IMG/VR virus record: IMGVR_UViG_3300017714_000033
Span: 1-42,014 of that record
DNA length: 42,014 nt
Source: a virus
Reading direction: 5' to 3' (one strand)
This document shows positions 1 to 42,014 of this stretch, one piece after another. Position numbers and translations under genes: made by a program. How positions within the stretch are numbered: the first letter of the stretch is position 1; each line of letters begins with the position of its first letter. Below the pieces are notes generated by a model. That model saw nothing but the letters and a program-made list of their open reading frames with translations. It ran no database searches and had not been told where the DNA came from.

Positions 1-858
1 GCATTAGAGACTATAGAGCAAGTAGAAGAAATGGATAGACTTACAGACAGTTTAGGTATGATGCGTACTAGCGCAGAGAGTAGTAACGAGGCTATGGGTA
101 AGTTCAACATGGGTATGAACTTTGCTATGATTGGTGTAATGTTGGCTACTTCTGCTACTATGGCCTTTAGTGGTAGTATGAAAGATGGAACACGAAAACT
201 GAGAATGCAAAGAACTGCGGCTATCGCTATGGGATTATCTACTGTTATGATGACAGTACAAATGGGTATGGCTCAAATACAAATGATGAACTTATCGGGT
301 CAAATGATAAACGGTGGGTTGGCAGCGAAACACGCTGCTGCTTCTAACAAAGTTTTAGGAGACTCTAACCTTTATGTAGCGCAGACTTCGGGTATGGCCG
401 CTAAAGGTATGAAAGCATTTTTGATTGCTTCTGTAGCAGGTACGGTGTTGTTGGGTGTTTCCTATATTATTGCTAGAGCAGGTGAATCTTTAGGTCTGTT
501 TGATGTAGCAGTTGACGACTCAATAGAAGGACTAGATGAATTACTAGACGTAGGCTCTGCACAGAACCAATGGATAGATGACTTTTCTAGTTCTTTACAA
601 GATGGTGAAGATGCTATGGCTAAGTTTAATGGTAGTCGAGAAGAAATGTTCTATGGTTTCAAGGCAGGTAACGCAGTAGGCGCTTTAATAAAACAAGTAA
701 AGCAACAAGGTGTAGAAAACTTTGTAGCGAACACAGAAGTAATTATGACTAACAACTTCAACGGTATGACTACAAGAGAAGTAGCCAATGAAATACTAGA
801 ACTTATAGAAGAAGGTTCGGGTAGTAATATCAATATAAGTATGGCAAGTCTAGGGTGA
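1..858 (+). CDS. tail tape-measure-like protein, 3' part
   Basis: The reading frame is open at the window edge, so this is the C-terminal part of a longer gene (285 codons visible; an internal ATG at 31 is not a convincing start). The visible protein has Met/Ala/Gly-rich hydrophobic stretches at about visible residues 40-58, 74-92 and 138-158, then a more polar acidic tail. Long proteins with such segments just before the tail-tip genes are typical of tape-measure proteins, which set tail length and occupy the tail lumen. It overlaps the next gene by 4 bp (GTGA at 855-858). The family call rests on composition, position and coupling to the giant tail gene; no specific domain was recognised. 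Confidence 0.6.
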   Translation, partial: ALETIEQVEEMDRLTDSLGMMRTSAESSNEAMGKFNMGMNFAMIGVMLATSATMAFSGSMKDGTRKLRMQRTAAIAMGLSTVMMTVQMGMAQIQMMNLSGQMINGGLAAKHAAASNKVLGDSNLYVAQTSGMAAKGMKAFLIASVAGTVLLGVSYIIARAGESLGLFDVAVDDSIEGLDELLDVGSAQNQWIDDFSSSLQDGEDAMAKFNGSREEMFYGFKAGNAVGALIKQVKQQGVENFVANTEVIMTNNFNGMTTREVANEILELIEEGSGSNINISMASLG

Positions 859-3800
859 TTAACTTGGTTAGGTCGGTTACTGGTAAATACAATCTTTGGA
901 TAGCAGGTTACTATGATGACTTTAGCGGTGCTAGAGCAATAGCAGACGATAACAATAGTCCAAGTGCTACAGTAGCCTACGACCACACTAAAACGCATTA
1001 CGGAAACCCTATGAATGGAGAGGCAACACTAAATCCTCGCTATCGTTGGTCTATTGTTGAAAGGTCTTTAGGTACTAATTATGACGCTGCTCTTACAGGT
1101 ACTAACAACACATATAAATATCTACAAAACAACGGTGCTTTTGAGTGGATAGGTCAAGATATAATAAGACAAAAATATGATAGGTGGGAAGGTAAAGCGC
1201 AACTACAATATCCCGATGGTAACGTAGGTAATAAATATAGATATGGCGGTAGTGGTAATGACGCATACCAATTGTTCACAAACGGTTTTGATACTTTAGG
1301 GACATATATAGTTCCTCTAGGTTCTAGTGACTGTACGTTTGGTAGAACTACTGCTAATGAATATACAGACACTCTTTACGAGAGTAAAACTGCGGGGTAT
1401 GTTGATGCTTCTTATGCAGTTTCTTTTACGCAGAAAGCAAATCTTATAGGTACTTGGATGGGGGAAACTATGGATTTTACAGACGCAGACGAAGTTTGTC
1501 CTCAAAATATTTTTTTCCCTGTTACTTCTCCCGCTAACAAACCCTTCTTAGCAATTCAGTCATACTATCAAACCGCGCCCACTAGCGGTAGTGTCCCATC
1601 TATACCTTCCATAATATACGATGGTTCATTAAACAGTAGGGCAGACGGTGACATATTCCACTTTAGAGTAGCGGTAAGGTCTTTCAACGGGAATACATCA
1701 TCAAACGGTAATGCGGGGGCTAACGTAAATGTTAAATTGGGTTTCACTAGTAGAATTGGTACTATATATGAAGATGGTTTTACTCACAGTAGTAACACTC
1801 CCGCAATCAATTTTAACCTATCTCTCACCAATTACGATTCATATGGTTCGCTATATAACGGTAACGCTACTAAGACATCTTATACCAATGATACCGCTTG
1901 GATTGACGTTGACGTTACTTTAGATTATACAAACAGCACTTATGTAGTATATCAAGACGGTGTGCAAGTAAGTACAGCCTCTTTTACTGGTACTGCTGCT
2001 AATATGTATGGGTATCAAATTACTGCTTACCCCGATGATAACAAGGACAATTCTGTAATAACTTTGTTGTTAGATAGAGTAGCACTATACCGACCATTAA
2101 CAAATCATCCCGCAGGTTTACAATTAGCGCCTGTCAAAGATTTGAAAGTTAGTTCTGTAGTCAACGGTATATCACAATGTAAAATAAATATATCAGATGA
2201 TGCAGATATTAATGCTAACGGTACTATCGGTTTTAATTCTAATGAGTATGATTATACTTTAACCCCTATTTTTGACGGCAGTATTACTAGCGATTGGTTT
2301 CTATTAGTCTTTGCAGAAGGTGGAAATAATTGGGTAAGAGATTCAAGAATAGACAGGCCGATATGGAGAGGTCTAATGGAAAAGTTACGAATTAGGCAGA
2401 GTGGAAGGGGTAGAAGTTTAGAAATAAGTGCTAAAGATACTTTATCTCTATTAGATAGACAAGTACCTTTATGGGAAGTAGGACAAAGTGGTTTGAACGA
2501 TGATGAATCACAAAATCCATATTGGCTTTATGATTCACAAGGGTTTAGAAATACTATGTACTTTGGTGTAAAACCATTTAAGTTATTAAATAATGAATTA
2601 GGATTTGATGTTGATGATTCTTTCTTAGAAAGAAACGACCAACGTATGCAATTGGGGTCGGGTCATCCTATACAAATGTCAATAAATGAAGATGCTGACG
2701 GCGCTACTTTTGTAGAAAAAGAATATGAAGGAGTAGGTATAGATAGTATTGGTTATACTGGAACATACACAAAGGTTTACATGACTGGTAATCCTTCCTA
2801 TACAGGCGGTGGCGGTGGAACTAGTGTCTCTATAATAAACTCTGAAACAAGTCAATATAATATCAGTAATAAAACCCCGCATAGTGTAGGTACTTATACT
2901 GATTACAGGGACAACTCTACTAAACAATTTCTTAATTTCACGCAAACTGATATGCCATATCAAGGCGCTGCTGATATAGTATATGCAGGTAAGTACGATT
3001 TTGCTGATGCTATATCATGGACTGAATTATACAATAAACTTACTTACTACGGAAATTATATTATAAGAGGTAGTGACACATCACCTTCTTGGCCTACCAC
3101 ATATACAGCAAACAAAATATCTCAAGCAATCTTTACGGTATTAGAGGGTATGTTCATAATGGGTGCTTACGTTCAAAGAACTCTTGATGAAGATTCTACA
3201 AGTCAAACCTACACCTTCCTTTTTGATACAGACCCTAACCTTGAAGCGGGTGATGTGTTTAGAGTACCTTATAGTGCTACACCTAGTGGTACAAATATTG
3301 ATTTCCTACAAGACCATACTGTTAGAGCAGTAAAAGAAATAATGACTTATCACAATACTGTCAACACACCCGCTAGTCCGTTGGGTAATATTTATTCTAC
3401 TTTAGTGGATAGAAAAAGATGGGTTGTAAATACTAACACACCATACAAAAATACAGAGTATGGAGATTACGAAACAGTTAGTGGGTTATTAGAAAATAAT
3501 TCTAGGATATATTACGAAAGTCAAAAAAGTATAGGAAGAATGTCGGCTACACCTACCCCAGTCGCAGACGGAGACTTGACTAAGAAAATATCTCAAGCAG
3601 TTTGGATGAGGGACTTGCCCGAATCTTTATGGTTCAAGTATCACTTTGGTGACATAACTACTGATTCTCATATAGACGCTACTGTCGCACCTAATTCTAT
3701 AACTTCTAATGATACTTATGTTCAAATATCTTCTACAACTAAAACGGCGTTAGACAATGCTAATGTATCTAACGGCATAGCCCAATTAGGCGCTGACGAT

Positions 3801-6800
3801 TTATTTATTTTCAAGGGTGTTACAACAGTAGGGAGTAATCATTATTTAGTAGGCTGTCAATTTATCAGTAATTCATATGGTGTAGGCGCTACCCTACAAT
3901 TCCCTGTAATCAAAAACGATTACAAACATATTTGGTTGCTTTGGTCGGATATGAGAAACAACGGGAGAGGGGATGCTGATGCGGGAACTAGAAAGGTAGA
4001 CTTTGGTTTAGAATATCCGCTATCTAGTAACTATGAAGTAAGTTTATTTTTCAAAGACCAAATAAATAATCAAGGTCAAAAGGATTTGTTTTCATCTCTA
4101 AAGATAGGAGAAGATATAGATATATGGAACGTAGATTCTACAGTAGACCCATCAACAGGTATACAATTTTCCTATCCTATAGATTATGATAATGCTTTAG
4201 GTATAAGTGGTTTAGCCGCAGTTAGTGGTGGGACTTACGATGGTAAAGTAGAAGTTACATATACATCTACACATTCCCTATCAACTTCGGATAATATATA
4301 TATTTATAATAGTAATTTATATGACGGTTATTATACTGTACTTAATGTCCCTTCAACTACAAGAATTATAATAGATAAAACTTCACTTGGTTCTGACACA
4401 GGTAAAACAGGGGGTATTCTAGGTGCTAAAACAAAAGGTACATCTATACTGTCTAACACAAATTACAAAAACTGGCATGACAAAGGAGGGTCTTTCTTAG
4501 TTATAGATGCTTCAAAGTTTTTCAATATAAACTCAAGTGCTAACAACGGTAAGGTAGGACAGGCAGCAGGTGGTAAAACTACTTTAGGAGATTACACAGC
4601 AACAGTAAGGGGATTCCCTGTAATAATAGATAACTATTGGTCGGAGGCTATAGCAACTAGTTCTAATACAGGAACTACTTATCTCAATCATCCTAATAGT
4701 AATAAAATAAGAAATGACGGCGTGTTTATGTCTAACAATATAGAACAGGGTGATTTTTATTTATTATTAGATAGTGTTGACAACTTTGACTTTAGCGGTT
4801 ATGGTAGAATCGTTGCTCTCAAAGATGACGGTAGTAATAAACAAACAAAAACAGAAAATTATTTTGGTTGGAATGATAGAAATAGTACAAAAAGAACAGG
4901 AACGGTAACTGTTTCACAAGCCTTTACTGCTACAGATGCGGGGTATTGGGAATTGACGGATTCTTCCGCTACATTCATAGACTGGGGTATAAGGGCGGGT
5001 ATGTATATCATTAATGCAACTCTACCTTGTGAAACGCCCGTAGCCTCCCCTTACGGTGGTTCTGAATATAATACAAGACCTAGATATAGAATAAAAGAAG
5101 TTGTTAGTAATACTAAAATAAAAGTAGAATTAACCTTTTTCAATAGGGATTTAACAGAGAGTCTAACTGGTGTTACCTTCACAGGTAGAACTAGGAGAAA
5201 GACTTTAACATCTTGGGATGCTAGTAATAGGTGGTTAAGTTTAGGAGTACATACTTATGTAATACCTGTTCAATTGACTGGTGTTCTTACTACTAGTGCA
5301 AGTAGTATTTCTATTAGTGCTGATAGTTCGCCCGATGAAATTAGAAAGGCTATGAATGATTTCTATAGATTTTCTTCTCCTACATTTAACAATCTTACAG
5401 CAAGTGAATCTTATTCTGCTAATACTGTTATCAGAACACCGTTTAGAATAAATGAAACTAATTACTATAATGACGGTACTGTTACTGTAGCGGAAAGGGG
5501 AGTGAAAAATTATGATAATGTATCTGTATACAATACTTTAGCCCCTATTCACCTTATGGATATAATGATGTATATAGATGGTTATTTTAGTAGTAGGACT
5601 AGTAATACTTACTACGACCACGATAAGTTTAGGGCTTTGTGGTGTGCAGCAACTATGAAAACTTGGATGCCCAAAACAAGATTATCTACTACTTTTGATA
5701 TAAACAATATACCTATAACAGAAAATATGTCAACTGACGGAGGTACAGTAAATATTGATTCTTACGGTGGCTCTTTCGATACAAGAGGTAAAGATTTGTT
5801 AAAGATAATATCGGGAGTTCAGAAACATAGTTCTCAAGGCGTAGACAATAATATAACTACAACCTTCTCTTACTTACAAGGTAGAGATGGTAGATTAGAT
5901 TACAGGCCAAAGTATAATAGTGGTTATTTATTTACAAGGAACAATTTATCCATGAGCGACTTAGATGGTAACATAGCAGGTAAGGTAGAGAACGTAAGAG
6001 TTTACTATAAAAATGGTAAATCTTTCGTAGATTATCCAAAGCCAAACTTAACAGACACTACTAGATGGAAAATAGTAGAACACCCAACTGTAATCTCAAA
6101 TAGAGAGGCTTTAAGTTTAGCACAGAAAGAATACAACTCTCAAAAAAATACTAGACTAAGTATTAAGGCTTCGCCAATGAGAGCAACCGAAACAGTAGCA
6201 GGTGTTTCAACACCAATAGCAGATGTTATGTTAGATGGTGGTAGGTTCGGTTACATATCAGACCCACAGAGAGTTATACAGGGCCATAATGATTTATCCC
6301 AAGCAGACGCTTATTCGTGGTCTAGGATAGGTACAGGTGGTGTATTATTCGGCGGTATGGTAAATGCTTTAGACGGTAATATAAATCAAAAATCAATAGA
6401 TAATACTACCCCCGATGACATATATAATCGTAGTGGTAGAAGTATGTATCACAATGCTGCGGCTTCTAATGATATACCTTATTCAATAAACTACTATTGG
6501 TACGGGGCTAATAGTCTAAGCCATGCTGTCCAAGTAGTTCATATACCTAAACATATGCCAAAAGTAAGTGCTACTACCTCAGAGCATTTGAGGGTAGCAA
6601 TTTCTATACAGGGTGGAACTACTATTGACGATGCGATATTTAGATTACATTTATTGGATTACCCATATAGTTTGAGTCAAGAAGGAGAAGGTCGCGCACC
6701 TTCTTTATCTATAAACGCAGGTATTACTAGTAGTACTTATTTCACCTATGTTGATATGAAGGGTAGTGGATTCCATGAAATATCAGCGCCTACTTCATAT

Positions 6801-8096
6801 TGGAATAGTTCAGCATCTAAAATAGTTGTTAGTTTCAATGCGGAATATTGTAGAGCGTTGTTGAGACATAGATGTGGCGACACTACTTCTGTAAATATTC
6901 TAAAAAACGCTAATGGATTTAGTGGCGACGCAACCATAGTAACAGGAAACGGTTCTAGTATATTCCCACTAGGTATGAGAAATTATAATGAGTTTCAAGG
7001 ATATGCTTCCACAAGAACTGCTTGGTATGCCCCTAGATTACTAATTACAGATGATGTGGTTTATGTACCTGCTACATATGTTACATATACTGATAAGGGT
7101 CTTGGTTTGACAGACGAAGTAATGACTATACAAAAAGTAGACTGGAAAGTTACAGCAGAGGGTTTGGAAGAAGTAGAACTGAGATTAGAAAGAGATGAGT
7201 CACTTTCTGCTGCGGGTATAATACCATATTTAATGTCGGGTGTAGATTCTATAAGACCTACACCAATAGTAACAGGTGGTAACGGGGACGAAGGAAACAG
7301 CAGTCCAGTAACGGGAGGAACATTTTCCCCTATTCTTGGTGTTCTAGGTTCAGAACTTGATTTGAATGCTAGTAACCCTAGTGGTGGAACTCAACAAGGA
7401 AATCAAGCAACAGAAGCACAGGGCGGCGGAGGTCAAACCTTTGACAGCACTATAAGTATAAATCAATTGAACACTCAACTGTATTCTGAATTGAAAGATA
7501 GAGCCAATTTATCAGATAGTAAGTTTAGTCACCAAAACGACTTTTCTATATTAGGGCAATCTAAGCCATCTGTACGGCCTTCTTCGATGCGAAGCATAGA
7601 AGGGCTATCTACAACAATCTCTCCCACTAGCGGCTCTCTAACGGTAACAAACAAGGGTATGTCGTTTGGTGGTGCAGGTCATCCCGAAGATACCGCAGAA
7701 CCTAACACTACTACTTCCTTCTTTATCACTATGCCCGAAGATGTTATGAGTGATGAAATTAATATAAGCGGTAAAGTAACTATGAACAGTACATCTTCTT
7801 CGACATCCAAAACAGGAACATTAGCGATAAGGGCAGAATGTGTAGAAACAGGGGATGTTATTGAAAACACTATATCCATAGGAACTAATACAGAGTTTAC
7901 TGTAGATTTAATTCCTAAAAGTATATTACGAGGTGTTTCTACAGTAGGTAATACTGTATTAGTAACAATCTCAAGAAATGCAGGTCAAGGTAGCGACAAT
8001 GCAAATGACTTGTCAATCAATCTAAACGAACTTAGAGTAAGTTATAGAAAGGCATCCTTCTTTTCTGATAGCGGTTCATCTACTTTTACTAACTAG
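855..8096 (+). CDS. giant tail/baseplate-like structural protein (2,413 aa)
   Basis: Starts with GTG overlapping the previous stop (GTGA) and ends with TAG inside the convergent nuclease gene (8-bp overlap). The protein is rich in Ser, Thr, Asn, Gly and Tyr with few charged stretches, as in beta-rich virion fibres. Around residues 265-415 a LamG/concanavalin-like pattern is seen (…DGVQV…LLLDRVALY). Residues about 420-560 look like a tail-hub segment (IWRGLMEKLRI…LEISAKDTLSLLDRQVPLW). Near residues 2095-2117 the pattern DWKVTAEGLEEVELRLERDE recalls the C-terminal part of tail-hub/baseplate proteins. A Gly/Ser/Gln-rich linker and a last beta-rich domain follow. I infer a tail-tip hub fused to receptor-binding or fibre domains. 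It follows the tape-measure-like gene, the usual place for such proteins. At 2,413 aa it is unusually long for a single tail component. Confidence 0.65.
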   Translation: MINLVRSVTGKYNLWIAGYYDDFSGARAIADDNNSPSATVAYDHTKTHYGNPMNGEATLNPRYRWSIVERSLGTNYDAALTGTNNTYKYLQNNGAFEWIGQDIIRQKYDRWEGKAQLQYPDGNVGNKYRYGGSGNDAYQLFTNGFDTLGTYIVPLGSSDCTFGRTTANEYTDTLYESKTAGYVDASYAVSFTQKANLIGTWMGETMDFTDADEVCPQNIFFPVTSPANKPFLAIQSYYQTAPTSGSVPSIPSIIYDGSLNSRADGDIFHFRVAVRSFNGNTSSNGNAGANVNVKLGFTSRIGTIYEDGFTHSSNTPAINFNLSLTNYDSYGSLYNGNATKTSYTNDTAWIDVDVTLDYTNSTYVVYQDGVQVSTASFTGTAANMYGYQITAYPDDNKDNSVITLLLDRVALYRPLTNHPAGLQLAPVKDLKVSSVVNGISQCKINISDDADINANGTIGFNSNEYDYTLTPIFDGSITSDWFLLVFAEGGNNWVRDSRIDRPIWRGLMEKLRIRQSGRGRSLEISAKDTLSLLDRQVPLWEVGQSGLNDDESQNPYWLYDSQGFRNTMYFGVKPFKLLNNELGFDVDDSFLERNDQRMQLGSGHPIQMSINEDADGATFVEKEYEGVGIDSIGYTGTYTKVYMTGNPSYTGGGGGTSVSIINSETSQYNISNKTPHSVGTYTDYRDNSTKQFLNFTQTDMPYQGAADIVYAGKYDFADAISWTELYNKLTYYGNYIIRGSDTSPSWPTTYTANKISQAIFTVLEGMFIMGAYVQRTLDEDSTSQTYTFLFDTDPNLEAGDVFRVPYSATPSGTNIDFLQDHTVRAVKEIMTYHNTVNTPASPLGNIYSTLVDRKRWVVNTNTPYKNTEYGDYETVSGLLENNSRIYYESQKSIGRMSATPTPVADGDLTKKISQAVWMRDLPESLWFKYHFGDITTDSHIDATVAPNSITSNDTYVQISSTTKTALDNANVSNGIAQLGADDLFIFKGVTTVGSNHYLVGCQFISNSYGVGATLQFPVIKNDYKHIWLLWSDMRNNGRGDADAGTRKVDFGLEYPLSSNYEVSLFFKDQINNQGQKDLFSSLKIGEDIDIWNVDSTVDPSTGIQFSYPIDYDNALGISGLAAVSGGTYDGKVEVTYTSTHSLSTSDNIYIYNSNLYDGYYTVLNVPSTTRIIIDKTSLGSDTGKTGGILGAKTKGTSILSNTNYKNWHDKGGSFLVIDASKFFNINSSANNGKVGQAAGGKTTLGDYTATVRGFPVIIDNYWSEAIATSSNTGTTYLNHPNSNKIRNDGVFMSNNIEQGDFYLLLDSVDNFDFSGYGRIVALKDDGSNKQTKTENYFGWNDRNSTKRTGTVTVSQAFTATDAGYWELTDSSATFIDWGIRAGMYIINATLPCETPVASPYGGSEYNTRPRYRIKEVVSNTKIKVELTFFNRDLTESLTGVTFTGRTRRKTLTSWDASNRWLSLGVHTYVIPVQLTGVLTTSASSISISADSSPDEIRKAMNDFYRFSSPTFNNLTASESYSANTVIRTPFRINETNYYNDGTVTVAERGVKNYDNVSVYNTLAPIHLMDIMMYIDGYFSSRTSNTYYDHDKFRALWCAATMKTWMPKTRLSTTFDINNIPITENMSTDGGTVNIDSYGGSFDTRGKDLLKIISGVQKHSSQGVDNNITTTFSYLQGRDGRLDYRPKYNSGYLFTRNNLSMSDLDGNIAGKVENVRVYYKNGKSFVDYPKPNLTDTTRWKIVEHPTVISNREALSLAQKEYNSQKNTRLSIKASPMRATETVAGVSTPIADVMLDGGRFGYISDPQRVIQGHNDLSQADAYSWSRIGTGGVLFGGMVNALDGNINQKSIDNTTPDDIYNRSGRSMYHNAAASNDIPYSINYYWYGANSLSHAVQVVHIPKHMPKVSATTSEHLRVAISIQGGTTIDDAIFRLHLLDYPYSLSQEGEGRAPSLSINAGITSSTYFTYVDMKGSGFHEISAPTSYWNSSASKIVVSFNAEYCRALLRHRCGDTTSVNILKNANGFSGDATIVTGNGSSIFPLGMRNYNEFQGYASTRTAWYAPRLLITDDVVYVPATYVTYTDKGLGLTDEVMTIQKVDWKVTAEGLEEVELRLERDESLSAAGIIPYLMSGVDSIRPTPIVTGGNGDEGNSSPVTGGTFSPILGVLGSELDLNASNPSGGTQQGNQATEAQGGGGQTFDSTISINQLNTQLYSELKDRANLSDSKFSHQNDFSILGQSKPSVRPSSMRSIEGLSTTISPTSGSLTVTNKGMSFGGAGHPEDTAEPNTTTSFFITMPEDVMSDEINISGKVTMNSTSSSTSKTGTLAIRAECVETGDVIENTISIGTNTEFTVDLIPKSILRGVSTVGNTVLVTISRNAGQGSDNANDLSINLNELRVSYRKASFFSDSGSSTFTN

Positions 8097-8856
8097 AGTA
8101 TTTATCTCTAAGGGCTAAAATATCTTTAGCACGACCTCTACCTATACCTTGTACTTCCATAAGACTTTTCTGAGTAGTCTTAGAATTAAGTATCTTAGGT
8201 ATAGAGCCAAACTTATCAAGTAGTTTCGCAGCCGCTTCTACTGATACACCTTCTATACTAGAAAGAGCCTTGATTCTATTGTCTAACTTTTTCATATCGT
8301 GTATCTTTTTTTCTTTAGCGGGTAATTTATCTCTTGTTACCGCACCCTGTATTGACATCTGAGTGTGATTAGTTACTAACCAATCACAGAAGTCATCCAT
8401 ACTTAACAGTTCCATATATTTAATTTTAGGAAACCTTTGGTAGAATTGCATCTTGAATGTCTGATTAACCTTCTTCATTCTAGCCAGTTCGATAGCCATA
8501 GACTTAGAGTTAGGTGTCCCTTTACCTACGACATACGGTTTGTATTTAGTTCCATATACAACTAAGATAGGATTCTCAAAGTCATCTTGTAAATCACGAA
8601 GTTGGTCTAAGATAGTACGGTTTCTACCCATACCTATTATACTTCTATACAGGTCATTGATTTCCTTTGCTTCTATACCCCATGTACCCATAGCGTAGTC
8701 GCCAGTAGGTAATCTCCTAATTTTCATGTTGCCGTCTTTACCCAAATCGGCATCACCTAAACGCATCAATAGTTTAGCCTTTATTTTATCATTTTCCCTA
8801 TCGTCAACTAGAAGCACAAAAAATACTATTGGGATATTGTATTTAAGCCGTTCCAT
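8089..8856 (-). CDS. ERCC4/XPF-family structure-specific nuclease with HhH domain
   Basis: 255 aa. The N-terminal half carries the ERCC4 nuclease signature: VDDRE at 17-21, GDY at 52-54 and IEAKEINDL from 61, corresponding to the ERK-x3-D core. The usual Arg of ERK is Ala here (E62-A63-K64, D68). The C-terminal 60 residues hold a helix-hairpin-helix pair (LSSIEGVSVEAAAKLLDKFG; VQGIGRGRAKDIL). XPF/Mus81/Hef enzymes use this arrangement to cut branched or flap DNA, so processing of replication or recombination intermediates is likely. There is no helicase domain, as in short archaeal XPF forms. It is the last gene of the leftward block; its start lies inside the end of the 51-aa zinc protein upstream (14-bp overlap). 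The family is clear; activity is inferred, and the Arg-to-Ala change should be kept in mind. Confidence 0.88.
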   Translation of the reverse strand: MERLKYNIPIVFFVLLVDDRENDKIKAKLLMRLGDADLGKDGNMKIRRLPTGDYAMGTWGIEAKEINDLYRSIIGMGRNRTILDQLRDLQDDFENPILVVYGTKYKPYVVGKGTPNSKSMAIELARMKKVNQTFKMQFYQRFPKIKYMELLSMDDFCDWLVTNHTQMSIQGAVTRDKLPAKEKKIHDMKKLDNRIKALSSIEGVSVEAAAKLLDKFGSIPKILNSKTTQKSLMEVQGIGRGRAKDILALRDKYSS

Positions 8857-11818: not shown

Positions 11819-14050
11819 TTATAGCCACTCTATCCCTGCTATACCTTCTAGTGAGTTAATCAATGGTTGCATCGACCAACCCGCTAATTCATAATAAGGT
11901 TTAGCCTTATTCACTATAAATCTCTCAGCCAATACTTTGTAGCCTATTTCACTAACACCTTCTATTTCATTAGGTTCGTCAAACGCTATATACTTTCCTT
12001 TAGGAGTTATAGTAGATAAGAAGTAAGAATCCTTACGGTAATTCTTACCTAAGTATTCGTTAGCCCAAGCCGCACCTGCTGATGAACCCGACAGGACTTT
12101 GTATTTACTAAGGTCTTGTTTCAACCTACCCTTCATACATATATCCAATGGGTCAATATCCTTTGATACTACTTTAGAGATTAAACTAGATAGTTCAAGG
12201 GTAACATCGGATTCTGATTTACCATTTAATATTCCTTGTATAACATCTGTCATACTTTCTTTCATTATAGGAGGCATACGACTCTGTTTTAATTCGATGC
12301 CTTTGAAGTATGACTTAGGTTCGTGGTACTTACCGTCAGTCCAAGATACAAGACCTGCGTATCTATTCTTAGCAGCAATAATTATTTTAGGACACCATTT
12401 CTCGAACTCAGTTTCTATCGGTTTCATATTCTTGTTAATTATTTTCAATGCTTCAACACCCTGTTCCGGTGTCTTGATTTCACAAAAGATAGAATCCGTG
12501 TGACCGTAAATTGTTTTCATCCCTAATTTATCCGCTTCATCCTTCAATTCTTGTAAAGTGTTTCTACTAGTATAGGTTATTGCTGCTGCTACTTCGGGAT
12601 GATACAATCCGTACTTAGCGTCACCTGCTACACCGTACATAGATGCTACTAGGGACTTACAAGCAAACTGCATAGTGTCCCATTTATTCTTCTCATCTTC
12701 ACTATCAGACATTATAATTCTCATCTTATATTCATTTCTCATACTAGTCATATTATCCATTTGTCTACATAACAATCCTTTACTTTCAAGGTTAAACTTA
12801 CTACCGTTTCCACAATCAGAACCGTTAGGGTCAAGCGTGTCCCACGATATACCATACTTACTTACATTACTATGATACATGGCCTTAACATCAAGTATTC
12901 CTATGTTGTCATACACACCCGCAACAGGCTGCATAACATTAGCACCTTCGTAATCCTTCTTAGCAAACTTTGGCCTTGTAGGAATCCTACCCTTAAACTC
13001 AGTATCTTTCAACGCTAAAACAGAAAACATTTGAGTGATGTGTGGCGTACTACGAATCTCGCATTGAACTAGGTGTTGTAATGCGGTGTAATAACCCAAC
13101 GCATTTACTGTAGCGTCTAATCTAGGCAGTAGTCTTACGTCTTGTCTACAATAATGTATGTATAGGGGAAGGTCGGAATAATATGTATCGTGACCGTCGG
13201 GCAACTCTACTTTATCCTCACCTAATACTTCCTTAGATACTTCACTAAGACTGTACGCAGGTAACTTACCATTCTTCAATTCCCATATCTTACTGAATGC
13301 AATCATTAAATCAATACACATTCTACCAACTATGGGCTGTTCCCAATCACCAAACTCATATCGTATAGAACGCATCGGAGACATACCTCTAGGTTCTATA
13401 CCATTAACTCTACACCTCTCAAATATAGTCTTAATATCTGCACCAGTAACATACCAACCAGTTAATATATCGGGGTCATGTTTATCCATGTGTCTAATAA
13501 AATGTATTAACATACTCTTCTCATCGGGAAATCCTAATGCGGGCGTTTCATATTCAAACTCACCGTATTTACTGAATGATGTCTTTTCCTTTAGAGATGG
13601 TTCTACAAACCATACAAACTCTTTATCGGTATAGTTGTCGTAAACTACTATAACCCGCATTCTACTAGTGGAAGGCGACCATTCACAATCTAAGAACCAT
13701 GTGCGGTGTTCATAATTAGGGATAGCGCCATGTTCTTGTAATCTATCTACCATAACACGATTAGCATGGGACACATTTGCTTCCCAAGTATAATCTCCTT
13801 GATTATACGCAGTCTCTCGCATAGTGTATGGGTCACTACAAACTATCTTAGTAAGAGATTCACCGTAGACACCCTTGTAACCAGTTTCCTTACCTACACT
13901 TTCTATATATTCTGCTGATTCATCAGCAACGAAAAAGTAAGGGTAATAGTTACTATGACTAATACTTTGCCTTTCTTTCGTCTTTGGGTCACGGTATCTA
14001 ATACTAACTGTTTTACCCCTTAATTTATCTACTATCAAGGTTCTCACCAT
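11819..14050 (-). CDS. polB: family B DNA polymerase with 3'-5' exonuclease
   Basis: 743 aa. Replicative polymerase of the virus. Exonuclease motifs: FLDCEW (D121, E123), ILTGWYVTGADIK (D205), YIHYCRQDV (Y300, D304). The inter-domain YxGG-like motif is YEGANV at 367-372. Polymerase motif A is ILDVKAMYHSNV (D387); motif B is ACKSLVASMYGV (K465, Y472, G473), with Ala at the usual Asn position; motif C is YGHTDS (515-520), with His where most family B enzymes have the first Asp; the catalytic second Asp (D519) is kept. KNRYAG from 561 fits the thumb-side KKRY-type motif. At 743 aa it is compact but complete. Start ATG 14050 lies 26 bp inside the upstream HTH gene. It is flanked by clamp and recombinase genes. 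Confidence 0.96.
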   Translation of the reverse strand: MVRTLIVDKLRGKTVSIRYRDPKTKERQSISHSNYYPYFFVADESAEYIESVGKETGYKGVYGESLTKIVCSDPYTMRETAYNQGDYTWEANVSHANRVMVDRLQEHGAIPNYEHRTWFLDCEWSPSTSRMRVIVVYDNYTDKEFVWFVEPSLKEKTSFSKYGEFEYETPALGFPDEKSMLIHFIRHMDKHDPDILTGWYVTGADIKTIFERCRVNGIEPRGMSPMRSIRYEFGDWEQPIVGRMCIDLMIAFSKIWELKNGKLPAYSLSEVSKEVLGEDKVELPDGHDTYYSDLPLYIHYCRQDVRLLPRLDATVNALGYYTALQHLVQCEIRSTPHITQMFSVLALKDTEFKGRIPTRPKFAKKDYEGANVMQPVAGVYDNIGILDVKAMYHSNVSKYGISWDTLDPNGSDCGNGSKFNLESKGLLCRQMDNMTSMRNEYKMRIIMSDSEDEKNKWDTMQFACKSLVASMYGVAGDAKYGLYHPEVAAAITYTSRNTLQELKDEADKLGMKTIYGHTDSIFCEIKTPEQGVEALKIINKNMKPIETEFEKWCPKIIIAAKNRYAGLVSWTDGKYHEPKSYFKGIELKQSRMPPIMKESMTDVIQGILNGKSESDVTLELSSLISKVVSKDIDPLDICMKGRLKQDLSKYKVLSGSSAGAAWANEYLGKNYRKDSYFLSTITPKGKYIAFDEPNEIEGVSEIGYKVLAERFIVNKAKPYYELAGWSMQPLINSLEGIAGIEWL

Positions 14051-15311: not shown

Positions 15312-16253
15312 TCACCACTTCAATACAGGTAAACCAGTCCAAGTAACTTTGTTATCTTTAACGCTTAGAATAGTATGTGTAGAACCTAGATGTTCCATGT
15401 TCTTACCTTTCATTTCTTCTATGGTTGCCTTGATAACCCACTCGCCCTCGGCAAGTTTCTTGTCACCTTTAACACCAGTAGCCAAATCTGCTTTCTTCAT
15501 GTATCTCGCTAAGAATATCTGCTGACTGAAAAGTCTCATAGTACCTTTCTCCCATTCCGGTACTTCACCTACAGACATCATAACTTTCTTACCTGTACCA
15601 TCATCCATGAACTCTTTAATATCTTTCAAGTGGAAAGTAAAGAATACCTTGTTTACAGGTAAACTATGTAGTCTATTCAAAACACCACGATTAAGTCTGT
15701 TTCTCTCTCTCCATTCTTTCTGATTGAATGTACCATCTTCTGTTTCTATAATACCTCTATCTAGTAATGAAGTACGCATAGCGTGTTCACACCATTTAAG
15801 GAATGTAGAACCACCGTCAAAGATAACACCGCCCCAATCATCGGGAGATGCTGCTATCTCATCAGCCAAGATATTAACAAACCATGATGTTTTATCTAAA
15901 AGAGATTTATGGTTGACCGAGTTGTCCTCATTAAAGATAGAGTCATCAGTCTCGTCATGTAGTGGTATTACCATAATATTTTCAGCGTTAGGATAGATAT
16001 AATCTACCGTTGACTTCGCTGAATTATCCACATCGAAGATTGCTACTTTCTTACCCGCTTTGATTTCGTCATCAAGCATAGATAGTGCAAGACCCGTTTT
16101 ACCACAATTCTCTCTTGCTACAAGAGCCATTCTAATATCTACTGATTGAGCGAGGTTATTCTTAAACCTCTCCCTAAAGTATTCCTCACCGTAAGTTACC
16201 TTCGGTGCATTCGTTTGTACTGCATTTGTTTGATTAGTTCCCCAAGCCGACAT
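15312..16253 (-). CDS. RecA/Sak4-like P-loop ATPase (recombinase or annealing protein)
   Basis: 313 aa from ATG 16253, which lies 30 nt after its TATA box; ATG 16259 is the alternative. Walker A is ARENCGKT (46-53; first Gly replaced by Ala), followed by the RecA-fold strand KVAIFDVDNS; Walker B is WGGVIFDGGS (D146). The later part has a VFFTFHLKDIKEF segment typical of RecA-core proteins such as viral Sak4 or AAA_24 ATPases. Such proteins aid single-strand annealing and recombination with an SSB. No RadA N-terminal HhH domain is present. It heads a run with clamp, HTH protein and PolB. Confidence 0.75.
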   Translation of the reverse strand: MSAWGTNQTNAVQTNAPKVTYGEEYFRERFKNNLAQSVDIRMALVARENCGKTGLALSMLDDEIKAGKKVAIFDVDNSAKSTVDYIYPNAENIMVIPLHDETDDSIFNEDNSVNHKSLLDKTSWFVNILADEIAASPDDWGGVIFDGGSTFLKWCEHAMRTSLLDRGIIETEDGTFNQKEWRERNRLNRGVLNRLHSLPVNKVFFTFHLKDIKEFMDDGTGKKVMMSVGEVPEWEKGTMRLFSQQIFLARYMKKADLATGVKGDKKLAEGEWVIKATIEEMKGKNMEHLGSTHTILSVKDNKVTWTGLPVLKW

Positions 16254-16258
16254 AAACA

Positions 16259-16286
16259 TACCTCACTTCATTAAGCATATAAACCT
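16259..16286 (-). promoter_or_regulatory. repeated promoter block, copy B
   Basis: Near-copy (27 of 28 bp) of 11788-11815. TATA box TTTATATGC at 16283-16275 on the minus strand, first T 30 nt upstream of the ATG at 16253. The block overlaps the end of the groEL-like gene, so the RecA-like gene can be transcribed apart from the chaperonin genes. Confidence 0.7.
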
Positions 16287-17865
16287 ACTCAGTAGGTAAT
16301 GCTACAGCGACCTCCGTTGTCAAAACTAATCTACTGATACTCATAGCACTACGCAAAGAAGAGATTACTACGTCTAGTGGGTCTAAGATATTATACTCGT
16401 AAGGTACAGGCACTAATTTCTTAAGTTTAGCGTCATACCAATCACCATTCATAAAATTATCATATAATTCTGTACGTTCAATCACTTGTCTATCACTATT
16501 GTATCTAATAACAATAGGTATTTCCCAACAGGCTTCTTGTATTATATCATCAATAGAGTTTTTCCATCCGGCATCCGAGTACAATACTTGTAAGTATGCT
16601 AGACCGCCACCATAAACCACACCGGACTGTAAGGCAGCCTTAGTAGCATTGATAGCATCGTCAAATCTCTCAAGACGTTCGCGTATTTCCAACTCACTAT
16701 TACCACCAACGTGTACGATAGATACTTTACCCTGTAATCTAGCGATTCTATTGTTTAATTTCTCAGCATCCCAATCATTTAATTCTTCGATACCTTCACC
16801 TATTGATAAGATATATTCATCCTTATCCTGTACGAACCTTTTCACTTTAGTGTCCGTATCAAGATTCTGCGATATGACAGTAGAAGTTTCTTTCACCGTT
16901 ATATTAACTGTATCACCCAAGTCCTCTTTCACAAGTTCAGTAATTGTATCTCCCGCACCCTGCTTGAATACTTTAGCCCCTGTTATACATCCTATATCGT
17001 CTAACCATGCTTCCGCTTCTTCTCCCCACGCAGGTACTTTAACAATACAAGCATCAATAGCCTTGTTAGCCACATTGACTAAGAGATTAGGCAACGCATT
17101 ACCACTAACATTCCTACAAATGAATAAGATAGGTTTATTGTCACCCTTAGCCAATTCGAGAGCAGGTATCATATTAGAGAAATCATCAATTACTTCTGTC
17201 GTTAAAACAACATACGCATCCTTCATATCTAGTTTGCCTTCGGGGGCAAAGTAATGTGATATGTAACCGGAAGGTATCTCAAAACCATTCTGAGTTTCTA
17301 TTGTCGTAGAAGTATTCTTACTAGGTTGTAAAGTAACCGTAGAAAACTTGTTGCTCACATCGAATGCCTTTGAAAGTATTTCACCTATCTCGGAATCATT
17401 GTTACCTGCTACATAAGCCACATTAAACAAATCTTCTTTAGTGGCTAAAGGTCTTGCTATTGTAGTAAGACCTTCTATCATGGATTCAACGGATGCTTCC
17501 ATATTATCTACTATCTTTAACATACTAGGATTTAACTTATCTAAGAAGTCATAGTAAGTAATAGCCGCTTGACACATCTTCTGTGCTAGGATAGTAGCAG
17601 TAGTTGTACCGTCACCGGACTTAGCCTGTGCTTCACTAGAAACTTGCTGTATTAGATTAACCCCCATATTAACAAATGGGTCGGAATGACTTACTGACTT
17701 AGCAATAGACACACCATCGTTCAATGCTAACGGAAAGTCATTCTCTCTCTCCAAGAGAACTGTGCTTGCACCTGCACCCAATGTAGGTCTAACTACATCA
17801 GTCACTAAATTAATTCCTTCTATCAAAGAATCTCTCAACTCATTACCACGTCTAATTTCACTCAT
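16285..17865 (-). CDS. groEL: group I chaperonin (GroEL-like)
   Basis: 526 aa from ATG 17865 (AGGAG 9-10 nt upstream; a TTG at 17874 is too close to that site). It is GroEL-like rather than thermosome-like: N-terminal VTDVVRPTLGAG; LNDGVSIAKSV; the ATP motif GDGTTTA (DGTTT at 85-89); and the second ATP-site region FDDAINATKAALQSGVVYGGG with the expected Asp (402) and GGG at 418-420. The C-terminus ends VALPTE with no GGM-repeat tail. Length matches bacterial GroEL (about 548) with a slightly shorter apical or C-terminal part. It folds substrate proteins in a double-ring cage with a GroES lid; viral substrates are unknown. It directly follows the groES-like gene, as in cellular operons. Confidence 0.93.
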   Translation of the reverse strand: MSEIRRGNELRDSLIEGINLVTDVVRPTLGAGASTVLLERENDFPLALNDGVSIAKSVSHSDPFVNMGVNLIQQVSSEAQAKSGDGTTTATILAQKMCQAAITYYDFLDKLNPSMLKIVDNMEASVESMIEGLTTIARPLATKEDLFNVAYVAGNNDSEIGEILSKAFDVSNKFSTVTLQPSKNTSTTIETQNGFEIPSGYISHYFAPEGKLDMKDAYVVLTTEVIDDFSNMIPALELAKGDNKPILFICRNVSGNALPNLLVNVANKAIDACIVKVPAWGEEAEAWLDDIGCITGAKVFKQGAGDTITELVKEDLGDTVNITVKETSTVISQNLDTDTKVKRFVQDKDEYILSIGEGIEELNDWDAEKLNNRIARLQGKVSIVHVGGNSELEIRERLERFDDAINATKAALQSGVVYGGGLAYLQVLYSDAGWKNSIDDIIQEACWEIPIVIRYNSDRQVIERTELYDNFMNGDWYDAKLKKLVPVPYEYNILDPLDVVISSLRSAMSISRLVLTTEVAVALPTE

Positions 17866-18082
17866 CTGTTTCAACTCCTAAAATATTACTATAATGTATA
17901 AAGAGATACTTACCGACCTTCATTATCTTACTATCGTCACAAAGAATGCAACCCATAGGCTGTAGGGAGGGAAGAGGAACACCCTCACCTACAGACACTA
18001 TAGAGAAATTATCTTTAACGACAAAAGAAGATGTCTCTTTAGATACAAGTTCTATCAAGACATATTCTCCGGTGGCCTTCAC
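17858..18082 (-). CDS. groES: GroES-like co-chaperonin
   Basis: 74 aa, starting with GTG overlapping the SSB-like stop (GTGA) and overlapping the groEL-like start (ATGAGTGA). The pattern YVLIELVSKE…SIVSVGEGV…GCILCDDSKIMKVGKYLFIHYSNILGV follows the GroES beta-barrel, including the end motif before the last strand. It is shorter than cellular GroES (about 97). The usual mobile-loop motif (GGIVL) is not visible; the region after VSKE is short (TSSFVVKDN). Partner of the downstream GroEL-like protein by position. Family assignment rests on pattern and adjacency. Confidence 0.75.
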   Translation of the reverse strand: MKATGEYVLIELVSKETSSFVVKDNFSIVSVGEGVPLPSLQPMGCILCDDSKIMKVGKYLFIHYSNILGVETDE

Positions 18083-19338: not shown

Positions 19339-20253
19339 TCATATACACAACCTCACGAAATTATGGAGAGTAATTCTTGGGTCTACACCTAGCAGTAAAT
19401 CCCTTTCTGCTGTGACTGCCGCATCAATGACCTTCAACTTAGAAGTTGGTTTAGCGGAGGAATTGACAGCATAATTAAATATTTCTTTTACCTTTGTTCT
19501 AACTTCTAAAAGATTATCCGATTCACCTATCATTTTCAAAGCAGCCTCGTAATCCTTCTCGACAAAACATAACTTCAAAATAGGTTCGCAGTTCAGCCCA
19601 TCATCCTTTAAGGACAAAAGGAATTGTTCTGCCTCCTTGTCATCTGCTATGTTCGCATAAACTTGTAGTGCGTTTATGGCTGCCCGCATATCACCTTCGT
19701 GTGCAGTAGCAATAAGATGTATCTTAGTGTTTCCTATCCTATTCGTGCCTTCGTGTGCTGCTATGTTAAGTAATTTAGCATACACAAGTTCCTTCGGTAT
19801 ATCGTGGAAATAATGAACAGTACACCTAGACTGAATCCATGCTGTGATTTTAGACAAATCATTACAGGTTAAAATAAACTTAGCGTGTGCGCCTTCCATA
19901 ACTCCTTTCAAGGCTGATTGAGCCGCAGGGGTCAATTGGTCTGCTTCATCTAGTAAGATTATCTTGTTGTAATAACCATTACCACAAAGAGGAATTATTT
20001 CTTCTTCGATGAAGTCAATACCTCTAGTCCTTTTACTACTAGCGTTAAAGATATATAATTGAGAATTGTACTTCTCGGCTAGTGCATAGGCTAGAGATGT
20101 CTTACCTGTACCTGCACCTTTACTATAAAATATATGATTACCGACGAAAGTTTCTTCAAACTTAGCGACTATCTCATTCTGTCCGATTATGTTATCAAAA
20201 GACGGTCTATACTTTTCAGTCCAAAGTACATCTTTATTATTTTCTTCCCACAT
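19339..20253 (-). CDS. rfcS: replication factor C small-subunit-like clamp loader
   Basis: 304 aa. Clear AAA+ clamp-loader motifs: N-terminal WTEKYRPSFDNIIGQ (RFC box), Walker A GAGTGKT (46-52), Walker B IILLDEAD (DEAD 102-105), sensor 1 LTCND (128-132), the SRC motif at 142-144 (IQSRC), and sensor 2 GDMRAAINALQ. It loads the ring clamp on primed DNA for PolB. The length fits archaeal RFC small subunits, which form most of the pentamer. No RFC large subunit was recognised, so the protein may form a homo-oligomer or use the host's large subunit. It overlaps the upstream gene by 17 bp. Confidence 0.95.
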   Translation of the reverse strand: MWEENNKDVLWTEKYRPSFDNIIGQNEIVAKFEETFVGNHIFYSKGAGTGKTSLAYALAEKYNSQLYIFNASSKRTRGIDFIEEEIIPLCGNGYYNKIILLDEADQLTPAAQSALKGVMEGAHAKFILTCNDLSKITAWIQSRCTVHYFHDIPKELVYAKLLNIAAHEGTNRIGNTKIHLIATAHEGDMRAAINALQVYANIADDKEAEQFLLSLKDDGLNCEPILKLCFVEKDYEAALKMIGESDNLLEVRTKVKEIFNYAVNSSAKPTSKLKVIDAAVTAERDLLLGVDPRITLHNFVRLCI

Positions 20254-36339: not shown

Positions 36340-37419
36340 TTAGGCGTTTACCATTTCGATGGCTAGTTCCCAACCTTTCCTCTTTTGCCTTGCACCTTGA
36401 CCGAAGAGGGATGATTCTTGCTTCTTCATCATAACCGCTTGCATCTTTGCATCATCGGCATTTGCTTTGCCGTCACGCACCGCTTTAGGCACAGTTTCGA
36501 TATGGTCTAGGTATTCGGTCAGAGCATTATATGCGGCCCATAGAGTACCTGCCATTTTACCGACACGGTTGGTTTTCTTCTCAAGCAATTTTTCGCATTC
36601 TAAGATTTTGTTAAGACCTTTGGTTGAGTATTGGAATGAACCGTCGGGCTGCTCTTTTGTTTCTATCCCTAAAGCATTTGCGAAGTATTCACGCATCTCA
36701 GATTTTTTCATCTTGATGCTTAACATAGATTCAGCATCATTACCCCACTCATCGAACTCATCCACCATCAAGCCAAGTACCTTACGGACATTATTAACTT
36801 GGTTGTGAACTTTGCCAGTATGTCTAACACTATGACCTTGACCGCCGCTTTGATTTAGAGCCATCGTTAAAGTATTATTACATACCACTCGTATAGGTGT
36901 AAGCATGAACTTAATTGCACCTGAACCATCATGCGTATTGCTGATTAAGATGTAACAGTCAATTTTATCTTTACCCATTAATTTAACTTGATAGGGAATC
37001 TTTGCTAAGACCCAAACTCTTTCACCGTTACCTAATGCACCACATACCTCAATCTTTGCCTCTTGACAATTTGTAAGTTCGTCTAAGAACTCAAACGCTT
37101 CAAAGTTCTGGAATGGTTTCCATACTCGACCGACAGTTTTGCCGCCCTTTGTAAGTGATACCATGTCGCCGTCTAAGTCTCTACGGAATACACCGAAAGT
37201 ATCGGGTACTACAACGTGTCTCTTGTTTTGTTCGTCATACACTTGAAGCGGTATTTTTTCTACAAGCCAGTTAAGACGCGCCGCTTCCAACGCCTCTGTT
37301 CCTGTCATTAGTTCAGAACCAAAGTTCTGTCCTAATCCATGCCAAGGAGTATTCCCCGACCATGCTGTCATCCATTCGTCATTTTTTGTTTTTGCTAACT
37401 GATGTGCCACTTTTTTCAC
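36340..37419 (-). CDS. DUF932 phage/plasmid-like protein
   Basis: 359 aa. Diagnostic segments: NTPWHGLGQNF near the N-terminus, then FGVFRRDLDGD, VGRVWKPFQNFEAFEFLDEL, NGERVWVLAKIPYQV, ILISNTHDGSGAIKF and TPIRVVCNNTLTMAL. DUF932 proteins occur in many phages and plasmids; their role is not established, though association with DNA maintenance is common. GTG 37419 is the apparent start; its leader (37420-37563) has long T-runs and a 12-codon Lys-rich frame ahead of it. Monocistronic-looking, with gaps on both sides. Confidence 0.85.
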   Translation of the reverse strand: MKKVAHQLAKTKNDEWMTAWSGNTPWHGLGQNFGSELMTGTEALEAARLNWLVEKIPLQVYDEQNKRHVVVPDTFGVFRRDLDGDMVSLTKGGKTVGRVWKPFQNFEAFEFLDELTNCQEAKIEVCGALGNGERVWVLAKIPYQVKLMGKDKIDCYILISNTHDGSGAIKFMLTPIRVVCNNTLTMALNQSGGQGHSVRHTGKVHNQVNNVRKVLGLMVDEFDEWGNDAESMLSIKMKKSEMREYFANALGIETKEQPDGSFQYSTKGLNKILECEKLLEKKTNRVGKMAGTLWAAYNALTEYLDHIETVPKAVRDGKANADDAKMQAVMMKKQESSLFGQGARQKRKGWELAIEMVNA

Positions 37420-39336: not shown

Positions 39337-39356
39337 ATATATTCATCTTTCTATTT

Positions 39357-39934: not shown

Positions 39935-40026
39935 TATTTTCGATGCGTTTGGTTCATGTAGCGCCTCGATGCAAATGAATGCAAAAAAGTTACACATTTA
40001 ATTTCAACCTCAAAAATACCACAATT

Positions 40027-40096
40027 AAAAGTCAAAAAACGCTGTACTGCGGCGGTGTAGAAAATGCACCGAAAAAAAATACCACAATTGACTTTT
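40027..40096. repeat. inverted repeat flanking CGCTGTACTGC
   Basis: AAAAGTCAA (40027-40035) and TTGACTTTT (40088-40096) are perfect 9-bp arms; between them is CGCTGTACTGC (40040-40050). A direct repeat ATACCACAATT also occurs at both sides. Confidence 0.5.
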
Positions 40097-40179
40097 GTAA
40101 CCTTTTTCGGTATCTTTTTTGCACTAGGTGTTTTTTTCAACACTAAGTATCTTTTTCACTTTTGTAACCTTTTGAATAT

Positions 40180-40276
40180 CTTTTGTAACCTTTTACTTCA
40201 CATTGAAAAATCGTAAATATAGGTACGTTCACTTTTGTAACCTTTTAATTCACATTGAAAAATCGCAAAAGCAGGT
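40180..40276 (+). repeat. two 45-bp tandem units, period 52 bp
   Basis: 40180-40224 and 40232-40276 match closely; each begins with an iteron and contains TTCACATTGAAAAATCG. Suggests a larger repeated unit built on the iteron. Confidence 0.75.
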
Positions 40277-40355
40277 TCAGAGGGCTATGAAAAAAAACAG
40301 GCAAAAATTACCGGAAACCGGAAATTAAACGGGTGTAAAAACTACACCGAAAAAA

Positions 40356-40658
40356 CCCAGAAATTAGCCTAAAAACAAAGATTAGTGTTAAAAAATAGTA
40401 AAAACCCAGAAATTAGGCTAAAATCAAAGATTAGGCCGACATTGAAAAAGTGCCTAATTAGGACAGAATCAAAGATTATGGCCGCCTCGCATCCGCAGTA
40501 CAACGATTAGGTTGAAAAACCCCAGAAATTAGGCCACAATCCCACATTATTAACAAATGTAAAATAATTATTATTGGGAGAAACTGCCTACATTTCCGTT
40601 ATTCGGAGTAGAAAATAAACCGTTGTACTGCATATCAAAAAGTGCGAAATTAGGCCAA
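40356..40658 (+). repeat. second repeat family CAGAAATTAGGC…CAAAGATTA
   Basis: Units at 40356-40385 and 40405-40434 are nearly identical 30-mers with period 49 bp. Partial copies lie at 40456-40478, 40521-40549 and 40645-40658. Distinct from the iteron and located only on the right side of the region, nearer the 40720 gene. Confidence 0.75.
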
Positions 40659-40673
40659 ATTCGTTCCAGAGTA

Positions 40674-40683
40674 TACTATAAAG
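40674..40683 (+). promoter_or_regulatory. TATA-like box before 40720 gene
   Basis: TACTATAAAG, 46 nt upstream of the ATG at 40720, followed by GGAGG (40705-40709) as ribosome-binding site. Matches the leadered promoter spacing at 19325 and 21972. Confidence 0.5.
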
Positions 40684-40719
40684 TAAAGGATGATTTGAGA
40701 GGTTGGAGGTTGTCCAATT

Positions 40720-42000
40720 ATGTCAAATGATAATACAATGATTAAGACGCACAAAATGATAAATGCCCCTAGAGAGTTAATCTCGGTAGGGATTGAAGAG
40801 GTTGCTAATGCACCTCAACTATGGAGTAATGTTAGCCACGTTACTCAACTTCTCGGAGAAGTTAAGTTCACTAAAACTAGTTTAGTTCATGCCGTAAGAG
40901 CAGTTAACAGAGTTCTTAGATTGGAAGGAATAAAACCAATTTCAACAAGTAAGAAAACAAAAGAAGATATTATTGACGAACTAGATAGACTATGTTATCA
41001 AGATACAGAAATGTACGGATTCTCAATTAACAAAAACAAAAACTTGCTATTGACTAAGAAAACATTAGTTGACTTCGCTCATGCTGGATTATTAACACAG
41101 GAACTAGGATTGAAATCATACTTGAGATTCAAGAGTACTTCCCAAGAAGTTGAATCAATAGTTACAACAGGTCACGATTCATTCAGTAAAAAGAACTGGG
41201 TAAACTCAGCATGTGAGACAGAAGGATTCGTTGGTCGTCATGCCTTGAGTGGATTCGGTACATTTACAGAAGAAAGAAACCTATGCAATAACAACAAAGA
41301 TGTTCAAACATATGGGATTGAGGACTATGCTGATTGTTATACAGAGAACGGCGTTCTGGGCTATGCTAGAAAAGGAACGACAACTTGTCAAGTATGTGGA
41401 GGAAAGGCAGAGTTAGAGTGGCATAGACCAAGCGTTTCAAAGAAGAATGGTACATTTCTAGGAATGCCATTCATTAGAATGACACGTTCACCATTCAAGG
41501 AAGTAACAATGTCAGCAAGAACAGAAATGAAACAAAAGAAAATATACATGCCAGTTCACAACGACGATGGAGAGATAACAGGATATGAAGACCAATTAGT
41601 TGATAGTAGAATTAAAACAGAATCAATTCAACCTAAATTAGTTCCTGTTCATATTCAGAAAAACGGTGGCAGGGTTGCTAGAAAAATCAACGGACGAACC
41701 GTGTGGGTTGATGTGTACTTTCAACAGTTAGTATTCGAGTCAGAAAGTAGTCAATCATTCGCTGTATGGTGTGCCGTTGAATGTAGCGGTATTGAGAGCA
41801 AGAAATACTTAGACAAGGTATTCATGCCTCACCCCAGTTCATTATCACAGATATTGACTAATACGCTATTGAATGATGCCAACCTAAACTTCCCAAAGAA
41901 GAACAGAGTAACAGAACTAGACGAACTAGTGAATTATGAAATGGGTTCAGATAAATTCGATAGAGATTATTCTGTTGAAGATGGTGCGGGGGTGGTCTGA
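40720..42000 (+). CDS. unrecognised protein with CxxC zinc motif (426 aa)
   Basis: ATG 40720 follows GGAGGTTG and a TATA-like box. The N-terminal 130 residues are helical (SHVTQLLGEVKF; SLVHAVRAVNRVLRLEG; DIIDELDRLCY). A central region has TTCQVCGGKAELEWHRP (C-x2-C plus His), a possible zinc site. The C-terminal part is beta-rich, ending acidic. No family recognised. Divergent from the leftward block and adjacent to the iteron region, it could encode an origin- or operator-binding protein, but no sequence feature proves it. Glycine codons favour GGA, whereas the tail genes favour GGT. It ends in a hairpin. Confidence 0.75.
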   Translation: MSNDNTMIKTHKMINAPRELISVGIEEVANAPQLWSNVSHVTQLLGEVKFTKTSLVHAVRAVNRVLRLEGIKPISTSKKTKEDIIDELDRLCYQDTEMYGFSINKNKNLLLTKKTLVDFAHAGLLTQELGLKSYLRFKSTSQEVESIVTTGHDSFSKKNWVNSACETEGFVGRHALSGFGTFTEERNLCNNNKDVQTYGIEDYADCYTENGVLGYARKGTTTCQVCGGKAELEWHRPSVSKKNGTFLGMPFIRMTRSPFKEVTMSARTEMKQKKIYMPVHNDDGEITGYEDQLVDSRIKTESIQPKLVPVHIQKNGGRVARKINGRTVWVDVYFQQLVFESESSQSFAVWCAVECSGIESKKYLDKVFMPHPSSLSQILTNTLLNDANLNFPKKNRVTELDELVNYEMGSDKFDRDYSVEDGAGVV

Positions 42001-42014
42001 AAATGACCTCCCCC
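41988..42014 (+). terminator. GC-rich hairpin at gene end
   Basis: GGGGGTGGTC (41988-41997) and GACCTCCCCC (42005-42014) pair with one mismatch around a 7-nt loop that includes the TGA stop of the 40720 gene. The window ends here, so a following T-run cannot be checked. Confidence 0.5.

Follow-up and report, generated by a model that had tools for sequence, protein, structure and literature searches.

The 42,014 bases of virus record IMGVR_UViG_3300017714_000033 (the whole stretch of DNA analysed, hereafter the window, which may itself be a fragment) contain neither GATC nor AGCT, and we conclude, at a probability of about 0.85, that they belong to a tailed archaeal virus, probably marine, which has been purged by synonymous change of many host restriction sites, and not of the site of one GATC enzyme. 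We propose that many restriction specificities of a presumed Type II-like kind in the archaeal hosts would select against sites, that the viral genome would be cleared of the recognition sequences by point mutation, largely synonymous, and that an incoming genome free of sites could not be cut at them. GATC and AGCT would then be the part of the lost set common to the whole family, GTAC, CTAG, ACGT, CGCG, CCNGG, GGNNCC, CAGTG, CTGAAG and more would be lost and regained lineage by lineage as the range of specificities among the hosts shifts, and a few relatives would instead carry DNA methyltransferases of their own and keep their sites.

Lost words and codon choice

GATC is a palindrome, hence its count of zero covers both strands. 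Its expectation is 141 from base composition, 128–135 under a maximal-order Markov model and 92 in codon shuffles (n = 200) that leave each protein and its codon usage intact. A sequence-only reading of this DNA had claimed that GATC is wholly absent and that more than a hundred copies would be expected at this base composition, and both claims hold. That reading had also proposed a count of palindromic 4-mers against a Markov model; the count bears it out for GATC and adds what it had missed, namely that AGCT is at zero too (expected 141 from base composition, 97 by Markov model and 113 by codon shuffle). These are the only 4-mers with a zero count in the window, the next lowest by Markov ratio being CGCG, with 11 observed and 33 expected.

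The mark of the purge is visible in the codons themselves. Aspartate before C is encoded 52 times by GAC and never by GAT, whereas elsewhere GAT outnumbers GAC by 533 to 211 (p 2e-27). Likewise, ATC is used for none of the 148 isoleucines that follow a G, against 126 of 674 elsewhere, and GCT for none of the 219 alanines that follow an A, against 256 of 507 elsewhere (256:251; p 1e-52). One-step neighbours of GATC are over-represented (4002 against 3660), and together with the codon switches this is the pattern expected of purging by point mutation, largely synonymous. Because it appears in both the codon shuffles and these synonymous-context tests, the loss of GATC and AGCT goes beyond what composition, codon usage or protein sequence would give.

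Where restriction-site avoidance is defined as an observed/expected ratio below 0.1 with an expectation of at least 15, the excluded sites are GATC (0/92–141), AGCT (0/97–141), CAGTG (0/62), CCNGG (0/60) and others. The degenerate GGNNCC (0/60) and the non-palindromes CTGAAG (0/20) and GTATCC (0/18) are also at zero, and by codon shuffle the non-palindromic losses are CACTG/CAGTG 0/39, GCTCC 0/24, CTGAAG 0/19 and GTATCC 0/17. Absent palindromic 6-mers number 47 of 64, where about 3.3 would be expected to be absent. In a list of restriction-type sites, whose entries overlap or nest and so are not independent specificities, 33 of the 84 with an expectation of at least 10 (first-order Markov) are at zero in the window, compared with 5/79 in T7, 7/82 in cyanophage S-SSM4, 15/84 in HRTV-27 and 34/83 in Serpecor1. 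A number of the lost words cannot be traced to any known specificity, which counts against restriction. Words centred on CCAG and CCTG are also depleted, in a pattern not reducible to a single motif.

Gene content and relatives

The window is probably that of a tailed virus with an archaeal, presumably marine, host (Table 1). The closest GenBank relatives of its polymerase, at 23–25% identity, are from haloarchaeal tailed viruses, and its clamp loader subunit is 35% identical to that of HVTV-1/HCTV-5. A 74-residue open reading frame (17858–18082) adjoining the chaperonin gene, beside which Magrovirales have GroES, has no Pfam match. The near relative L004, though not the window, encodes a portal-like protein (PF04860, E 3e-9, slightly under the cut-off) and a minor tail protein (PHROG 290, E 8e-19). 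Phage records gave no nucleotide match to bases 1–24000 of the window, alignments of the polymerase and clamp loader to genome contigs yielded no marine archaeon as host, and a search of 398 Thermoproteota genomes, run without a positive control and therefore uninformative, gave no polymerase match at 1e-60.

Table 1. Features of the window with their positions, strands and supporting matches.
Feature	Position	Strand	Evidence
Whole record without GATC, AGCT and 47/64 palindromic 6-mers	1..42014	.	counts and null models
ERCC4-type nuclease with helix-hairpin-helix	8089..8856	-	PF02732, 39 bits (cut-off 24)
Cas4-like / phage exonuclease	10156..11001	-	PHROG 69, E 5e-17; PHROG 1706
Family-B DNA polymerase	11819..14050	-	PHROG 262, E 7e-83
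AAA ATPase, family-conserved	15312..16259	-	PF13479, 30.6 bits (cut-off 27)
Group I chaperonin (GroEL-like)	16285..17874	-	PHROG 5725, E 4e-100; PDB GroEL chains, E 5e-76
Archaeal-type clamp loader small subunit (RFC)	19339..20253	-	PDB archaeal RFC small subunit, E 1e-29
DUF932 protein	36340..37419	-	PF06067, E 5e-51; PHROG 1221

With the family-B polymerase as query, which also served as the basis of the tree, relatives were found at 70 IMG/VR loci, including a handful nearly identical to the window; the AAA ATPase has relatives at 63 loci. Of the 55 family contigs with a length of 8 kb or more, 49 exclude GATC and 48 exclude AGCT. Both are excluded in all 14 hold-out relatives brought in by RFC, a set that is not fully independent since at least two lie on contigs of the polymerase set (L282 with L029; L284 with L025). 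GATC-avoiding records spanning 38–72 kb have no GATC at all, save one record with a single copy. The same absence in unrelated co-occurring genomes, which the sequence-only reading had set down as counter-evidence, is for the most part not seen: cyanophage-like contigs of the same metagenomes are normal for GATC, and the unrelated contig L320, likewise without GATC, is the exception. Among 61 cyanophage-like marine contigs, GATC is excluded in 3 and AGCT in 1.

The rest of the lost set turns over among lineages. ACGT, CTAG, GTAC and CGCG are often lost in addition, CCGG, GGCC, GCGC and TCGA rarely, and TGCA and CATG in no relative; in L040/L070 nine tetramers are absent. The minimum number of changes on the polymerase tree is 13 for CTAG, 10 for CGCG, 9 for GTAC, 5 for ACGT and 4 each for GATC and AGCT. 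In a 12.6 kb alignment of the window with L003/L004, at 83.5% identity, none of the window's 39 GTAC sites is retained in L003, compared with 38 of 63 CTAG and 30 of 42 CATG sites retained in L003/L004 and a background 4-mer conservation of about 54%. This reflects either GTAC-directed pressure on the L003/L004 lineage after the split or a relaxation on the lineage of the window. Family GC ranges from roughly 35 to 56%, which suggests several hosts.

Methyltransferases and competing explanations

For METHYLTRANSFERASES, the window has no match to PF01555, PF00145 or PF02086, the three Pfam families tested. Of 49 records scanned, 8 keep GATC, and a strong C5 methyltransferase is found in 5 of these 8 and in none of the 41 avoiders (Fisher 3e-5, uncorrected for kinship), although on the tree the link amounts to two or three independent events and a kinship-corrected test is not significant. 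In three of the avoiders there are weak matches (33 bits) to the C5 methyltransferase family. Whether GATC is retained is not linked to N6/N4 methyltransferases (PF01555; p 0.33), and the mean number of excluded tetramers is 1.2 with a C5 enzyme, 4.4 with no methyltransferase and 5.3 with N6/N4 enzymes only. In L046 a tandem of three methyltransferases (L186:289–1446, 1437–2996 and 3018–4784, minus strand) adjoins the polymerase gene, one of them matching the CcrM and DpnA enzymes over a short stretch. L071, which has no AGCT, encodes a C5 enzyme at L159:7640–8560. L061, L059 and L015 keep GATC with no methyltransferase detected in what are partial records, and a Pfam scan of the accessory genes of L061 found none. 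For the relatives bearing C5 enzymes, the direction of the link would fit the restriction model. The sequence-only reading's claim of strong selection finds good support in four lines of evidence: the synonymous-context tests, the lineage-specific loss of GTAC, recurrence across the family and the association of C5 methyltransferases with retained GATC.

A 2023 survey found persistent archaeal methyltransferases for GATC, AGCT, GTAC, CTAG, CGCG, GGCC, CCWGG, CTNAG and CATTC, those for GATC and AGCT being near-universal in Nitrososphaerota and mostly orphans (PMC10609329). The overlap of the lost tetramers with the first six of these specificities is striking. Against restriction stands the fact that, of the GATC and AGCT methyltransferases known from archaea, many lack a nuclease (PMC10609329); were the host enzymes truly orphan, the model would require either a nuclease dependent on methylation or a partner nuclease as yet unrecognised. 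In the latter case the GATC (m6A) and AGCT (m4C) methyltransferases conserved as supposed orphans in mesophilic archaea would be the modification half of antiviral restriction, their nuclease having gone unrecognised, and the lineage-specific losses would mark further such pairs, an idea that we regard as possible though unlikely.

The former case, in which viral progeny would be methylated at GATC and AGCT by orphan host methyltransferases and then cut at the methylated sites by a nuclease of the next host, is less likely still. It gains from the persistence of both motifs, mostly as orphans, in Nitrososphaerota and Methanomicrobiales (PMC10609329), from a lake Nitrosoarchaeum genome in which 96–98% of GATC and AGCT sites carry methylation (PMC6329791) and from the Mrr of Haloferax volcanii, which targets Dam-methylated DNA (PMC7230728). 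However, methyltransferase-bearing relatives retain their sites, though methylation should then harm them, and the lineage-specific losses would need many separate methylation-dependent specificities.

One host restriction enzyme with GATC as its site would account for a loss that is total in the window and near-universal in the family. As a full account it is refuted, and is most improbable, because AGCT has vanished as fully as GATC, along with about 30 more restriction-type sites, and the remaining losses vary independently among relatives in differing combinations; it may hold for GATC alone. The sequence-only reading's choice of host GATC restriction as the simplest cause therefore survives with regard to restriction and fails with regard to a single enzyme. 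General aversion to palindromes, through structure, replication or repair, could explain why 6-mer palindromes sum to 0.29 of expectation, but it is contradicted, and hardly credible, since ATAT, CTAG (187 observed, 207 expected), CATATG, ACTAGT and CAATTG are near normal in the window, the non-palindromes given above are entirely lost and the lost set differs between close relatives. An artefact of assembly, library or composition can be dismissed, as GATC is normal in other viruses of the same metagenomes (L211 64/70, L266 112/112) beside the family member L009 (0/45), L003 and L036, two family members sampled together, differ in the sites that they have lost, and codon-preserving shuffles bring the sites back.

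Precedents and meaning

A purge of this kind has a direct precedent in the HF1 group of haloviruses (Haloferacalesvirus, Hafunaviridae: HF1, HF2, Serpecor1, Hardycor2), whose extreme palindrome avoidance (no GATC, no CTAG and 21 6-mers missing throughout) was called remarkable and was attributed to host restriction (PMC7230728). As there, a tailed virus, probably archaeal, wholly lacks GATC, a second tetramer and dozens of 6-mer palindromes, and the count of restriction-type sites at zero is alike in Serpecor1 and the window. In contrast, the second tetramer is CTAG in the HF1 group and AGCT here, the HF1 group is a different virus family (the Serpecor1 polymerase is about 23% identical), the window lacks a methyltransferase of the families tested, and here there are about 84 relatives with a common core and a changing remainder. 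A survey of viral site avoidance found 3.9% of site-virus pairs excluded and Type IIG sites not avoided (Rusinov et al., 2018; PMC6286503). The lost sites here resemble those of that survey in falling below the same observed/expected ratio of 0.1 at an expectation of at least 15 and in being mostly palindromic and Type II-like, whereas here one genome excludes dozens, including the Type IIG-like CTGAAG.

By described gene set alone, the window can be likened to the Magrovirales and Aoguangviridae, tailed viruses of marine archaea (Poseidoniales) that encode a family-B polymerase, an RFC small subunit and GroEL (PMC10768690, PMC12999244), all three of which it has in its replication block. It differs in having a single-chain polymerase, where the Aoguangviridae map has PolB-NTD and PolB-CTD. 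Magrovirales genomes span 90–110 kb, and the 42 kb of the window may be a fragment. The magrovirus texts consulted make no mention of site avoidance, and a search of open-access literature, which omits most subscription papers, gave no report of a purge in this marine group. The phenomenon is thus known from salt-lake viruses, and this is a new, well-replicated case.

What is added is a shared core with a changing remainder across many relatives, along with a methyltransferase trade-off that is testable: the sites kept in methyltransferase-bearing relatives make a prediction for the bench. Common forbidden words with a variable rest would be a readable record of restriction specificities in hosts that cannot be cultured. 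They predict host methylomes to be sought, offer a signature for matching virus to host, and allow one to ask whether orphan methyltransferases conserved in archaea have a role in defence.

Gene content of the window and of relatives that keep GATC

In the window, a 2413-aa open frame has related proteins in 37 loci (30–59% identity) and sits where the direction of transcription switches, at about base 8,100. Between 27136 and 42000, a third of its length, no window protein has a relative among the fetched loci, with the exception of a DUF932 protein, which was recognised by families. The clade that retains both GATC and AGCT carries a methyltransferase tandem made up of two N6/N4-type genes and one C5 gene.

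Coordinates of the features discussed
Feature	Record	Position	Strand	Remark
2413-aa open frame	window	855-8096	+	no Pfam family
Three DNA methyltransferase genes in tandem	L186 (clade keeping GATC and AGCT)	289-7033	minus	adjoins polymerase
Three DNA methyltransferase genes in tandem	L173 (same clade)	1180-8680	minus	adjoins polymerase

CCAG and CCTG words in the window

Depletion in the window affects CCAGA (7 observed/47 expected), CCAGC (1/33), CCAGG (0/13) and CCTGA (7/46), unlike CCAGT and CCTGT, which occur at normal levels, and no known specificity fits all of the depleted CCAG and CCTG words. Phage T7 is a further instance of avoidance of a non-palindromic word, CTGAAG being observed once against 28 expected.

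Excluded words outside the family

Marine viruses of the cyanophage-like kind have a different set of forbidden words, all their own: of their contigs (L196-L274, and L074, which is S-SSM4), 36 of the 37 testable ones exclude CCGG, and 15 of 58 exclude TCGA. Several tetramers are also excluded in distant viral contigs that encode the clamp loader small subunit (RFC) and lie outside the family (L294, L297, L305, L320 and L326), with six in L305, five in L297 and four in L320, and thus the trait extends past the window's own family.
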